64,000 nt of DNA. Origin: Candidatus Tectimicrobiota bacterium (GTDB taxonomy: Bacteria; Tectomicrobia; Entotheonellia; Entotheonellales; Entotheonellaceae). Shown one piece after another: positions 4,981 to 46,935 of this stretch (position 1 is the first letter of the stretch; each line of letters starts with the position of its first letter). A program made the translations under genes and the position numbers. The notes under the pieces are model-generated. The model was not told the DNA's origin and did no database searches. It saw nothing but the letters and a program-made list of their open reading frames with translations. The stretch is from positions 156,501-220,500 of the forward strand of contig BPKO01000002.1 in NCBI GenBank assembly GCA_026005175.1. Direction: 5' to 3'.

Positions 4981-6660
4981 ATGGGCACTTCGGCCATTCT
5001 GTACACCGGCCTGCGGGCCCTGCTGGCCCAACAGACGGCCATCCACGTGGCGGGACAGAACATCGCCAACGTCAATACCCCCGGCTACTCGCGCCAGCGC
5101 GTGCACCTCGTTGCCGACCAGATCCCGCAGCGCGGCGCCCTGCTGACCGCTGGCGTCTCGGTGGCGGAAATCACCCGTGTGGTGGATCGCTTTCTCACCG
5201 CGCAGCTCACCGCCACCAGCGCTGCCGCGGCCAGCACCCAGGCGCAGGCCGATTTCTTGAATCACATCGAGGCCTTGTTCAACGAGCTGCCGCTTGAGGA
5301 CGCTGGCCTTGCCGGCTTGCTCGATCGCTTCTTCCAGGCCTTCCACGACCTGGCAGCACGGCCGCAGGGACTGCCAGAGCGCACCGTGGTGCGCGAGCAG
5401 GGCCAGGCTTTGGCCGAAGCCTTCCAGCAACTGGCACAAGGGCTTGCCGACACGCAGCGCGCGCTCACCACCGCCATTGCCGCCGAGGTGACGCAAATCA
5501 ACCGGCTGGCCGGCCGCCTGGCCGAGCTGAACCTCGAGATTCAGCGCGTCGAGGTCGATCCCACGCAGCACGCCAATACCCTGCGCGACGAACGCGACCA
5601 GGTGCTCAGGCAGCTGGCCGAGCGGGTGCAGGTCACGGCGTTTGAGACCGCCGGCGGCCTGACGGTGCTGCTGGGCGGCGGGCGGCCGCTGGTGGAAGGC
5701 GCCCGCGCCAGCACGCTGGTGACCCAGGCCGATGCCGACGATCCGCAGCAGGTGCACGTCTTGCTGCAAGACCCGCAGGGACACCGGGTGGCAGTGGACG
5801 ACCGCATTCTCGGCGGGCGGCTGCACGGCCTGCTGCAGCTCAAGGCGGGCTTTCGTGCCCGAGGTGGCAGCCAGCCTCGATCGCCTGGCCGCGCAGCTGA
5901 CCGGCGCCGTCAATGCCTTGCACCGCAGCGGCTACGGCCTTGACGGCAGCACCGAGGTGCCGTTTTTCGTGCCCCGCCAGGTGCACACGCAGGCCCTGGC
6001 CGCCAACGCGGGGGGCGCCCGCATCGAGAGCGCCAGCGTGGTGGACCCGGCGCAACTGACGCTAGACACTTACCACCTTGTGTTTACCGCCGACGGGCCC
6101 GCCGCCGCAGTTTGACGTCGTCAACGCCACCACCGGCGAGACGGTGCTTGGCGGCCAGACGTACGTCTCAGGGGCCACCGTGGCCTTTGACGGCCTGGCC
6201 TTGGTGCTGGCCGACAGCGGCCAGCCGCCGCGCCGCGGCGACACGTTCGTCATCGACACCACGCGCGGCGCTGCTCAGGCCATGGCGGTGAACCCGGAAG
6301 TGGTGGCCGACGTGCGCAAAATCGCCGCTGCCCAGACCCCCCGAGGCGGGCGATAACGCCAACGCCCTGGCGATTGCCGCTCTGGCCGAGGCGGAGCTGC
6401 TCGACGGCGAGACCCTCGGCGCTTTCTATGCTGCCCTCCTCAGCCGCGTCGGGGCCGAGAAGCAGCACACCGACAGCCTCGCCGAGCAGCAGCAGCTCCT
6501 GCTCACCGAGCTCGAAACCCGGCGCGAAACGGTTTCCGGGGTCTCCCTGGACGAAGAACAGGTCGACCTTCTTCGCTTCCAGCAGGCCTACAGCGCGGCT
6601 GCTCAGCTCATCGCCATTGCCGACGACATGACGCGCACCGTAATGGACTTGCTGCGCTGA
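4981..6660 (+). CDS. flgK: Hook-filament junction protein FlgK (three frameshifts)
   Basis: FlgK (HAP1) joins hook to filament outside the cell. The N terminus is classical (LYTGLRALLAQQTAIHVAGQ, then NIANVNTPGYSRQRV) and the C terminus is the D0 helix (QQAYSAAAQLIAIADDM ending MDLLR). Three single-base insertions break the frame: an extra T at 5851, one base in the GC-rich run near 6095-6109, and one C in the run at 6337-6342. After the third, the family motif GDNANALAIA appears intact. The restored protein is about 559 residues, normal for FlgK. Conserved sequence on both sides of each break argues for sequencing error. Confidence 0.92.
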
Positions 6661-40871: not shown

Positions 40872-41919
40872 TCAAGGCGTGATGGCACGGGTCACGGAGC
40901 GCGTGGCGCCAAAGGTAGGCACGCACGAGGAGTGCTTGCCGGCGCCACCGGCCACCACGATCACCATGTCCTGCCAGCGCCGCACCACGGGGATCGTTGC
41001 CTCGTCGTGCAGCGCCTGCCACTTGGGCCAGGCCTGCATGCCCCACATGCCGCCAAGGCGGGCGCGCCGCACCGGCACGCGGGCGTGTTCGAAGAGAAAC
41101 TGCTGCACGTCGGCTTTCGACCAGCCCTCGGCAGCCAGGGTGGCGGCGTGCTCGGGGCCGAGCACGATGAGCATTTCGGTGTCGTTGAGGTAGAGGTTGT
41201 TCATGCCCATGGTGGCAGCGGCATCGGCAATGGTCATGAGCAGGTTTTCGCCTCGCTGGCTGACGTGGTCGTTGATGTTGTGCGGTGCCTCACCGCCCCA
41301 CACGGTCACCGTGCTCGTCTCGGGGGAAAAGCCGCGCTCGACGTGCAGGGGCGTCCAGGGGTTGCGGGCTTCGTTTTCGGCAATGCAGTAAGTGTACTTG
41401 GCCGGGCTGCCCTGGGTGCTGCGGTCGCCTTCCCCCGGGAGGGCCGCCGCCGATGTTGAGCAGAATCAGGCGCAGGGCCCTGCCCAGGGTAGCGTTGGCT
41501 CGCCAGCCCGGACCATAGGCGTTGTAGCCGCTGTTGACTTCGAGCTGTCTGGCCAGTGGGCCGTTGAGGATGAGCAGCGGCGCCACCGGGTGGGTGGTGG
41601 CCTGGATGCCAAAGAGGTTGAACTCTGGGGCCAGCATTGCCTCCACCGCGGTAAGGAGCACCGGCAAGTATTCCGGCAAGCAGCCGGCCATCACCGCGTT
41701 GATGGCGATTTTCTCCACTGTGGCCTCGCCCCAGCGCGGCGGAATGCGCCCCAGCACCTCGTGGGGGGCACGCCGCGTGGCGGCCAGCATGCGCTGCACG
41801 CGCGCTTCCGTCGGCGGAATAATGGGCAGGCCGTCGGTCCAGCCGCGGCGGTAAAACTCGTCGAAGATCTGCTCGGGGTCGTCGGGCAGCTCCAGCGCCT
41901 CGGAGACCAGCGTCGCCAT
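40872..41919 (-). CDS. Conserved hypothetical protein next to the UGSC selenoprotein (one frameshift)
   Basis: An AAGGAGG site precedes the ATG at 41919. The first frame gives DPEQIFDEFYRRGWTDGLPI, then PHEVLGRIPPRWGEATVEKI and NAYGPGWRANATLGRALRLI. At the five-base C run 41432-41436 (G on the coding strand) one base must be removed; the next frame then continues GDRSTQGSPAKYTYCIAENE and ends SVTRAITP at 40872. The restored product is about 349 residues with no signal peptide. I cannot name an enzyme family. Its start lies 12 bases from the selenoprotein stop, and both are on the same strand, so they are likely one operon and may act together. Confidence 0.75.
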
Positions 41920-41931
41920 AGCGGCGCCTCC

Positions 41932-42477
41932 TTAAGCACCGGCGGCGGCGGTGAGCAGCTTGCGCACTTGCTCCAGGGCCGCTTCTGCCTTGCTGAGCAC
42001 CTGCTCGCGCGTCTGCCCGCCCAGAGGGTGAGGGACTTGCGCCAGGGGCAGGGCCGGCATGCCCAGGCTGGCCGCTTCGCTGCGGCCCAGCTGCAAGAAC
42101 TCGTCGGTGCACAGGGTCACGGTAGGAATGCCCCGCTTTTCCAGCTCCACGGCGTCGTGGACACTCCACGACGTGCAGGAGCCTCAGTCGCCCGAGGCAA
42201 GGAGCACGGCGTCGCAGGCGGCGGCCAGCTCGGCCAGCGTCGTCTCATCGGCGCCGGTAGCGGCGTGGGCCTTGCGCCGGTGCACCACCGTATTTACCCC
42301 GTCGTGCCGGCACAGCAACGCGGCCAGGTGGTGCAAGAGCACGTCGGCGTTGGGCTTGGTGTTGTCAAGCAGGCCCAGGCGCTTGCCGCGCAACTCGCGC
42401 AGGCGCGGCGCCAGGGGGAGCTGGTGCGGGCGCGGCGCCGCCACCGGCACCAGGACGCGAACCGTGGAAACGGCCAT
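41932..42477 (-). CDS. UGSC family selenoprotein (in-frame TGA read as selenocysteine)
   Basis: The frame from the ATG at 42477 (GAGGAG site upstream) runs through RLGLLDNTKPNADVLLHHLA and CDAVLLASGD to a TGA at 42184-42186. It continues in the same frame as GSCTSWSVHDAVELEKRGIP, TVTLCTDEFLQLGRSEAASL and a final AAGA at 41932. Reading TGA as selenocysteine gives the motif U-G-S-C, the signature of the UGSC selenoprotein family. The result is one 181-residue product. A SECIS-like hairpin begins 11 bases after the TGA. The U-x-x-C pair suggests a redox role; the true function of the family is not established to my knowledge. SelA/B/D and tRNA-Sec would be needed elsewhere. Confidence 0.88.
42154..42172 (-). 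promoter_or_regulatory. SECIS-like hairpin after the UGA codon
   Basis: On the minus strand: GTCGTGG, loop AGTGT, CCACGAC, a seven-pair perfect stem whose five-base loop holds GU. Outer CAC/GTG pairs can extend it past a small bulge. The loop lies about 19-23 bases after the UGA, within the range of bacterial SECIS elements read by SelB. Confidence 0.75.
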
Positions 42478-42614
42478 AGGCAGACGCTCCTCGCTGTATG
42501 GGTCACGCCGCCCCGTGCAAATCGGCGGCAACGGAGCCAGGCTTGCTCATCCGGGCAGGGCCTGGTATCCTCAAGCACTAGCATGCCCGCAGCGCCGGTG
42601 TCAAGAGAAGACGC

Positions 42615-44381: not shown

Positions 44382-45354
44382 TGCGGCTGGGGTGGGCCTT
44401 GCTCGCCGTTTTGCTTGCCGCGGTGCGCCCGGGCCCCTGGGAGCGCCGCTCCGGGTGGTGACCACGGTGGCGCCGCTCACCGACTTGGTGCGGCAGGTAA
44501 GCGGCGACGACGCCCGCGTCCACGGGCTTATTCCCGAAGGGGTCAACGCCCACACCTTCCAGCCCACCCCGGGGGACGTGCGCTTTCTGGCCAGTGCAGA
44601 CCTCATTGTTCTCAACGGCCTTTTCCTCGAAGAAGCCATCGAGCGGCTGGTGCGCGCCAGCGCCCGCCCCGGGGTGCGCGTCTTGAAGCTGGCCGAGGCC
44701 ACGCTCGGCGAGGCAGAATGGATCTTTGACTTCAGCTTTCCGCGAGCGCAGGGGCGGCCCAACCCGCACCTGTGGCTCGATGTGGTCTATGCCCAGCGCT
44801 ACGTCACGCTGGTGCGCGAGCAGCTGGCGGCGCTAGATCCGGCGCATGCCGAGGCTTACGAGCGCCGCGCCGCCGCCTACCTGGCGCAACTGGCGCAGCT
44901 GCACGACTGCATTACCGCCGCCGTGGCCACCATTCCGCCCGCGCAGCGGGTGCTGCTCACCTACCACGACGCCTGGCCGTACTTTGCCCGCCGCTATGGC
45001 CTGCGGGTGCTGGGGGCCATCCAGCCGGCCAACTTCTTTGAACCCTCCCCACGCGAGGTGGCGCGCCTGATCGCCCAGATCCGCCAGGCGCAGGTGCCGG
45101 CCATTTTCGGCGCGGCGGTCTTTCCCAGCAAAGTGCTGGCCCAGATCGCTGCCGAAACCGGGGTGCGCTACGTCAGCACCTTGCGCGACGACACGTTGCC
45201 CGGCGCACCCGGCGAGCCGCAGCACAGCTACCTCGGCATGATGCTGGCCAACGCTACCGCCATGGTTGAGGCCTTGGGAGGCGAGGCCGCGGGCCTGGCG
45301 GCGTGCCGGGCCCGGCTGCTTCCTGGAGAGCGCCATGAGCCGGCCGCTCGTTGA
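44381..45354 (+). CDS. ZnuA/TroA-type metal-binding lipoprotein or periplasmic protein (one frameshift)
   Basis: Solute-binding protein of a zinc/manganese ABC importer. The ATG at 44381, within the ClC stop (TGATG), begins a signal sequence MRLGWALLAVLLAAV; the mature protein, however, lies in another frame (PLRVVTTVAPLTDLVRQVSG onward). The frame must change between about 44420 and 44440, where one base seems missing. Metal-ligand histidines are present in NAHTFQPTPGD, NPHLWLDVVYA and YHDAWPYFARRYGL, with an acidic LRDDTLPG near the end. The His-rich loop typical of zinc-specific ZnuA is absent, so manganese is as likely as zinc. Confidence 0.85.
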
Positions 45355-46136
45355 ACTGCGCCGCGTCACGGCCGGCTACGACCGCCAGCCGCTGTGGCGC
45401 GCGCTCGACTTTGCCCTGTGGCCCGGGCAGTTTGCCGCCCTGGTGGGCCCCACCGGAGCAGGCAAGAGCGCCCTGCTCAAAGTGCTCGTAGGCCTGCTGC
45501 CGGTCATGACTGGCAGCGTGCAGCGGGCGCCGCACCTTGCCATTGGCTACGTGCCTCAAGGCGAGGCCATCGACGGCCACCTGCCGCTCACCGTCGAGCA
45601 GATGGTGTGCTTGGGGGGCTACCGGCAGACGCGACCTTGGCCGTGGTTTAACAAGCAGGAGCGACGCCAGGCCGCCGCCTGGCTGGAGCGCCTTGGCCTT
45701 GGCGCTTACCGCGGGCGCCACCTCAGCCAGCTCTCGGGCGGCCAGCAGCAGCGCGTCTTGCTGGCGCGGGCGCTGATGGGGCAGCCGCAGCTGCTGGTGC
45801 TCGACGAGCCCACCACCGGCGTCGACTTGCACACCCAGCACACCATTTTGCACCTGCTGCGCGACCTCCACGGCGAGGGGCTGAGCGTGCTCTTGGCGTC
45901 CCACGACCTCAACACGGTGGCCAGCCACGTGCCGTGGCTGGTCTGCTTCAACCGCGGCCTGGTGGCCCAGGGGCCCGCCTGGCACCGTGCTCACCCCGGC
46001 GGTGCTGCGCCAGACCTATCACGCCGACATGGCGGTGGTGCGCCACGAGGGGCTAACCCTGGTGGCCAACCGCACGCTGGTCCACCGCCACGGCAGCGGC
46101 GTGCCGCAGGCAGCCGGCGATGGCACCCCTGCTTGA
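45335..46136 (+). CDS. Metal ABC transporter ATP-binding protein (one frameshift)
   Basis: The nucleotide-binding subunit, ZnuC/MntB type. Walker A is GPTGAGKSALLKVLVGLLPV, the signature is LSGGQQQRVLLARAL, Walker B is LLVLDEPTTGVDLHTQ, and the switch histidine is in LLASHDLNTVASH. Near 45969-45982 (GGGGCCC run) one extra base shifts the frame. Restored, the family tail VLTPAVLRQTYHADM follows to the stop at 46136. The start at 45335 overlaps znuA by 20 bases, and the restored end overlaps the permease start by 17 bases. Confidence 0.88.
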
Positions 46137-46935
46137 ACCCCTGCACTACCGCTTTTTCCTTCACGGCCTGCTGGCTGCCGTGCTGGTAGGCGGCCTGTGC
46201 GGCCTGCTCAGCGTGTACGTGGTGCTGCGCCGCATGAGCTACATCGGCCACGGGCTGGCGCATGCGGTGTTTGGTGGCGCGGTGGCCAGCTACGCCCTGC
46301 ACCTCGACTTCTACCTCGGCGCCGGCCTCTGGGGCGGGCTGGTGGTGTTGGCCATCGACGGCATTGCCGCACAGCGCCGCCTCCATGCCGATGCCGCCAT
46401 CGGGGTGGTGACCACCGCCAGCTTTGCCTTCGGCGTGGCCCTCATGAGCCGCATGCGCCGCTTTGTGCGCGACTTCGAGGCGGTGCTCTTTGGCAACGTC
46501 CTGGGAGTGTCGGCGCGCGACTTGGTGGTCATTGCCGCGGTCACCGCCTGCACTGTAGCAGCCCTGGCGGTGCTGCACAAGCCGCTGCTGCTGAGCACCG
46601 TCAGTGAGGACGTGGCGCAGGTAGCAGGGGTGCCGACGCGGCGCGTGCGCCGCGGCTTTGCCGTGGTTCTGGCCCTGGCCATGCTGGCCGCCCTGCAGGT
46701 GCTGGGGGTCACGCTGGTGGCAGCAGGCCTGGTCATTCCGGCGGCTACGGCGCGCCTGCTCACCCACAGCATTGCCACCATGCTGTGGCTCTCGCCGCTG
46801 CTGGGCGCCCTGGCCGCCCTGGTGGGCATGTACCTGAGCTACTACCTCGACGTGGCCTCTGGAGCCGGCATCGTGCTGGTTGCCACGCTGGGCTTTGCGG
46901 TGGCCCTGGCCTGGCGCCGCGCCACCGCGCCCTAA
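46120..46935 (+). CDS. Metal ABC transporter permease (ZnuB/MntC type)
   Basis: A 271-residue integral membrane protein with about eight helices. It has the ABC-3 family segments RRMSYIGHGLAHAVFGGAVA, then AAIGVVTTASFAFGVALMSR and GLVIPAATARLLTH. It completes the importer begun by the two genes upstream. Whether the substrate is zinc or manganese cannot be told; a manganese exporter (MntP) is also encoded in the window at 58578. It ends four bases inside the convergent dehalogenase gene. Confidence 0.93.
   Translation: MAPLLEPLHYRFFLHGLLAAVLVGGLCGLLSVYVVLRRMSYIGHGLAHAVFGGAVASYALHLDFYLGAGLWGGLVVLAIDGIAAQRRLHADAAIGVVTTASFAFGVALMSRMRRFVRDFEAVLFGNVLGVSARDLVVIAAVTACTVAALAVLHKPLLLSTVSEDVAQVAGVPTRRVRRGFAVVLALAMLAALQVLGVTLVAAGLVIPAATARLLTHSIATMLWLSPLLGALAALVGMYLSYYLDVASGAGIVLVATLGFAVALAWRRATAP

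Follow-up and report, generated by a model that had tools for sequence, protein, structure and literature searches.

The locus at positions 41932..42477 (minus strand) of the stretch of DNA analysed here (64,000 nucleotides from a Candidatus Tectimicrobiota bacterium, called the window below) raises the question of whether an in-frame TGA is a stop or a selenocysteine (Sec) codon and, if Sec is inserted, what the protein might do. A 181-codon frame runs on the minus strand from an ATG at 42477, which is preceded by a GAGGAG ribosome-binding site, to a TAA at 41934-41932. It is broken solely by the TGA at 42186-42184, codon 98, which is followed by GGC TCC TGC (G-S-C). A preliminary description of this DNA had proposed a single frame with one TGA and a following G-S-C, and this was borne out base by base. 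Default gene calling with table 11 gives two open reading frames, 42184..42531 and 41932..42150. Both the split and the loss of the active site had been anticipated, and the gene is an example of how default annotation can miss a selenoprotein.

Sequences on both sides of the TGA belong to one family. The Pfam UGSC model (PF24696) matches continuously across the TGA from residue 8 to residue 176 of 181 (E 9.1e-57; 192.4 bits, cut-off 25), and the NCBIfam model UGSC_fam (NF041046) gives 156.6 bits against an equivalog cut-off of 125. The preliminary description had assigned the protein to a known family whose function is open. The family is indeed known, since a UGSC-containing selenoprotein family was described in marine metagenomes (PMC2398784). 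The window gene resembles it in full-length sequence, UGSC motif, in-frame TGA and bacterial-type SECIS, and differs from it in nothing essential. A literature search found no experiment or functional study on any UGSC protein. A scan of reference genomes together with a scan of 60 relatives yielded 56 copies, each at a locus of its own, which come from Chloroflexota, Actinomycetota, Pseudomonadota, Nitrospinota, Rokubacteria, archaea and the lineage of the window itself. The codon at the Sec position is TGA in 52 of these copies and Cys in 4/56, three of the latter in records titled archaea and one in a record titled Streptosporangiaceae. None of the homologues ends at the TGA; they continue as Sec or Cys. 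The motif in the window is D-U98-G-S-C101, and U/C98, G99 and C101 are invariant among 34 aligned members.

A hairpin of seven pairs with a GU-containing loop had been claimed 11 bases downstream of the TGA, and exactly this structure is present (GTCGTGG-AGTGT-CCACGAC, 42172-42154, minus strand; loop AGUGU in RNA). Bacterial SECIS elements are hairpins close after the UGA with a small apical loop containing G (PMC1088965), a form that the window hairpin shares. An Rfam search of the window at gathering thresholds gave no match, so the hairpin was assessed by comparison of homologues. Folding of the UGA plus 45 nt of the window gene gave -25.2 kcal/mol (z -2.4 relative to synonymous-codon shuffles). 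The distance between hairpin and UGA is constant among Sec homologues, and the hairpin is absent from the four Cys homologues. Standard pairs fill 90.4% of the pair cells in 49 distinct Sec sequences, and 45 pair cells are altered on both sides, which are compensatory changes. The covariation score was 0.366 compared with a shuffled mean of 0.117, none of 500 shuffles scored as high, and the signal was destroyed when the partner strand was slid. The innermost pair is G-C in 26/49 sequences and C-G in 23/49. Because its 5' side lies in a Trp, Cys or Gly codon while its 3' side is mostly a synonymous third base of Val, the covariation goes beyond what protein sequence alone would produce. The loop reads AGUNU in 40 of the 49 sequences. 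Folding is more stable in the Sec windows than in control windows taken from other parts of the same genes (mean z -1.07 vs -0.01, P 2e-9); the four Cys copies show no folding effect relative to synonymous-codon shuffles. Conservation, compensatory changes and covariation thus support a bacterial SECIS.

Machinery for Sec insertion, on which the preliminary description had made its reading depend, is complete in the host genome: selA, selB, selD and tRNA-Sec are all present. SelA matches TIGR00474 at 637.6 bits and its gene adjoins selB. The anticodon of the tRNA-Sec is TCA in the gene (UCA in RNA). The selD gene (G000:C9:120631-121554, L065) has one in-frame TGA and probably encodes a selenoprotein itself. 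The host has a further candidate selenoprotein, short and GrdB/PrdB-like, whose gene carries an in-frame TGA (G000:C5:119394-119900, L113). Among the 60 genomes, tRNA-Sec was found in 9/9 that bear UGSC compared with 22/51 of the others (hypergeometric P about 0.0014).

The host carries seven UGSC loci, all with TGA and one reported in two pieces. Each of four genomes from the host's family or class has 4-7 UGSC matches, and any match at all was found in only 4/55 other genomes. In a tree the paralogues fall in separate subfamilies, so they did not arise by recent local copying. The sister genomes contain no close match to the window copy. A small HIT-like protein adjoins one of the UGSC subfamilies in 5/5 genomes of the lineage (L071, L077, L084, L090, L095).

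The family profile across the TGA, the retained hairpin and the Sec machinery indicate that the window gene truly encodes a selenoprotein and belongs to a known family, and we regard a Sec-containing UGSC protein as nearly certain. A TGA that is a true stop, or that arose by sequencing error, with the two frames as separate genes or pieces of a pseudogene, would fit the frame break of the neighbouring partner gene in this assembly and a similar break in a UGSC paralogue on contig 6 (both described below). This explanation is contradicted by 52 copies from several phyla that have TGA at exactly the same codon, followed by a covarying hairpin, and by the complete Sec system of the genome. We consider it highly improbable.

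UGSC genes have a near-constant companion. Members of a family of ~330 residues with the motifs DGLPxxPPT, TTHP, NGP and GPGxRANATIGRA are encoded no more than 3 kb away from UGSC and on its strand in 53/56 copies, mostly within 300 bases. The partner gene lies before or after UGSC depending on the locus, and at several loci the two are fused into a single open frame of about 550 codons. Two of the three UGSC copies that lack a partner sit near a contig end. No Pfam or NCBIfam family matched the partner. A structure search gave no match that could be trusted (the best had Z 6.7 over 81 residues), and a PDB sequence search with the UGSC and partner profiles returned chance-level matches only. 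That the partner might be a piece of GrdB was rejected on profile comparison (probability 0.1-0.2). The 2008 metagenome paper reports UGSC fused to a second domain, Unknown_1 (PMC2398784), which may be the partner family seen here.

In the window the partner gene (40872..41919, minus strand) is split between two frames, 41919-41290 and about 41447-40872, which match positions 2-161 and 144-330 of the partner profile. The break lies at a short G/C run near 41430 (41425..41447, minus strand). The partner is a single intact frame in all relatives seen. A UGSC paralogue of the host (L075, about 6330-6420, G000 contig 6) has a frame shift at a C run. Two breaks in a single draft genome, both in homopolymer-like runs, are most simply read as assembly indels, and the break in the window partner is most probably an indel from assembly or sequencing. 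True decay of the window copy is a possible but less likely alternative. Programmed frameshifting is unlikely, as the relatives are intact and a similar break occurs elsewhere in the same assembly. With its partner frame-broken, the module in the window may not be functional in the form sequenced.

A lead to the chemistry of UGSC came from profile comparison. The glycine reductase selenoprotein B model TIGR01917 matches 14/34 UGSC proteins over the Sec motif (best E 1.3e-7). Profile-profile comparison of UGSC with full-length GrdB from the same genome set gave a probability of 95.5 (P 1.4e-8), and a wider GrdB set without the window's own sequence gave 94.7 (P 5.6e-8). Reversed and column-shuffled controls did not exceed 1.4. 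The Sec columns of UGSC and GrdB coincide, and a later HP motif is common to both. As in GrdB/F/H and PrdB, a strand, U-G-x-C, a helix, the next strand and a later H-P segment can be aligned. The GrdB match is limited to about 95-116 residues around Sec. UGSC has about 180 residues, whereas GrdB/F/H of glycine, sarcosine and betaine reductases (TIGR01918) have about 430. The window UGSC scores 25.4 bits with TIGR01918, far under the cut-off of 65.45, and is therefore a remote GrdB homologue rather than a member. On this sequence comparison, the region around Sec in UGSC is a distant homologue of the GrdB/PrdB Sec domain. The accessible text of published UGSC descriptions holds no statement of a GrdB link. 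The UGSC family was already known, and the window gene is another of its proteins; the remote GrdB homology, the predicted fold and the extent of the partner linkage are new beyond the UGSC label. The preliminary description had noted neither the partner gene and its frame break nor the GrdB link and the seven paralogues.

The Sec of GrdB and PrdB acts as a nucleophile towards a substrate that a pyruvoyl subunit holds. GrdB/PrdB systems include a GrdE/PrdA-like subunit of this type, none of which was recognised in the UGSC partner, as Pfam and NCBIfam models showed no resemblance of the partner to GrdE/PrdA. A GrdB-like fluoroacetate operon of Cloacibacillus, in which a GrdB-type protein with a second linked subunit is implicated in C-F cleavage (PMC10838667), is a precedent for GrdB-type proteins acting on a substrate other than an amino acid. 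That operon belongs to the GrdB complex family proper.

An AlphaFold model of UGSC (pLDDT 93.5, pTM 0.86) has five strands alternating with helices in a doubly wound, Rossmann-like sheet. Sec98 is predicted to lie at the end of the third strand, where a helix starts. The nearest folds in a structure search were Rossmann- and flavodoxin-like; many Rossmannoid folds were matched, none of them a close relative. Thioredoxin-fold proteins were absent among the matches listed, which is no proof against them. The metagenome authors guessed a thioredoxin-like fold in 2008 (PMC2398784). The Rossmann-like arrangement of five strands leaves this guess unsupported, although it does not formally exclude it.

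Many UGSC modules lie within catabolic clusters. Their neighbours include CoA transferase, acyl-CoA ligase, enoyl-CoA hydratase, parts of B12-dependent mutases, TctC receptors and hydantoinase. A gene for the catalytic beta chain of ferredoxin-thioredoxin reductase lies 26 bases from one UGSC-partner module (L106 4637-4966, minus strand), and this protein is a possible reductant.

The GrdB-like Sec loop with a nearby Cys, the dedicated partner and the catabolic and ferredoxin-thioredoxin reductase neighbours favour a two-part Sec reductase that acts on small organic substrates with GrdB-like chemistry. We advance this reading tentatively, as one that is nearly evenly poised. Computation shows the selenoprotein itself, its SECIS, the Sec machinery, the homology, the partner and the catabolic setting. 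Host SelA, SelB, SelD and tRNA-Sec decode UGA98 as Sec with the hairpin just downstream. How the two proteins touch, what they act on and by which chemistry is inferred, as is every step that follows here. The partner would bind and activate a small organic substrate, and Sec98 would attack it and take up a carbon fragment or leaving group. Cys101 could then resolve the intermediate as a Se-S bond, which a thioredoxin- or ferredoxin-type reductant would reset. Against a GrdB-like mechanism stand a partner unlike GrdE/PrdA, the shortness of the GrdB match, the broken partner in the window and the non-catabolic neighbours there. A wider proposal, that UGSC and partner form a distinct class of two-component Sec reductases, is possible, and we offer it with some reserve. 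Such a class would pair a GrdB-type Sec domain with a different, previously undescribed activating subunit for carbon-heteroatom cleavage in several catabolic pathways, and a small lineage would hold about four to seven all-Sec modules per genome.

UGSC might alternatively be a general thiol/selenol oxidoreductase in which UxxC, like a CxxC switch, acts on disulfides or peroxides and the partner is a dedicated substrate or reductant protein. The UxxC is invariant apart from the Sec/Cys exchange, further downstream the window encodes a TlpA/ResA-like thioredoxin, the beta chain of ferredoxin-thioredoxin reductase adjoins one relative, and earlier authors assumed a thioredoxin-like redox role (PMC2398784). 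However, the predicted sheet is five-stranded and doubly wound and has the motif following its third strand, UGSC is homologous to GrdB and not to thioredoxins, and the setting differs across catabolic pathways. We think a general oxidoreductase rather unlikely. The module could also bind a metal or cofactor with Sec as a ligand and take part in acyl or amide catabolism as an isomerase, lyase or hydrolase. Nearby genes for amidohydrolase, creatininase and hydantoinase are consistent with such an enzyme, as are weak similarities in fold between the partner and cyclic amide hydrolases, class I fumarases or RidA-like domains (Z 4-7). These fold matches are nevertheless below the level of kinship, and Sec with a following Cys is better suited to nucleophilic or redox use than to metal binding; a metal- or cofactor-dependent enzyme seems improbable. 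To a selenoprotein specialist the gene itself is ordinary. What makes UGSC function a testable question is its homology, its partner and the covarying SECIS. A first hypothesis on its chemistry that can be put to the test comes from the GrdB homology, the near-obligate partner and the catabolic neighbours.

The immediate neighbours of the module in the window are non-catabolic (TlpA-like, GGDEF and ClC). An operon link with the downstream genes for a 97-aa protein and the TlpA-like protein was considered and rejected. Neither has a convincing homologue near other UGSC loci, the TlpA match near one of them being weak (E 0.002, L020), so they are not counted as parts of the module. Further along the window, at 44455-46935 (plus strand), lies a zinc/manganese-type ABC transporter with substrate-binding protein, ATPase and permease, which are AztC/A/B-like at scores below the equivalog cut-offs.
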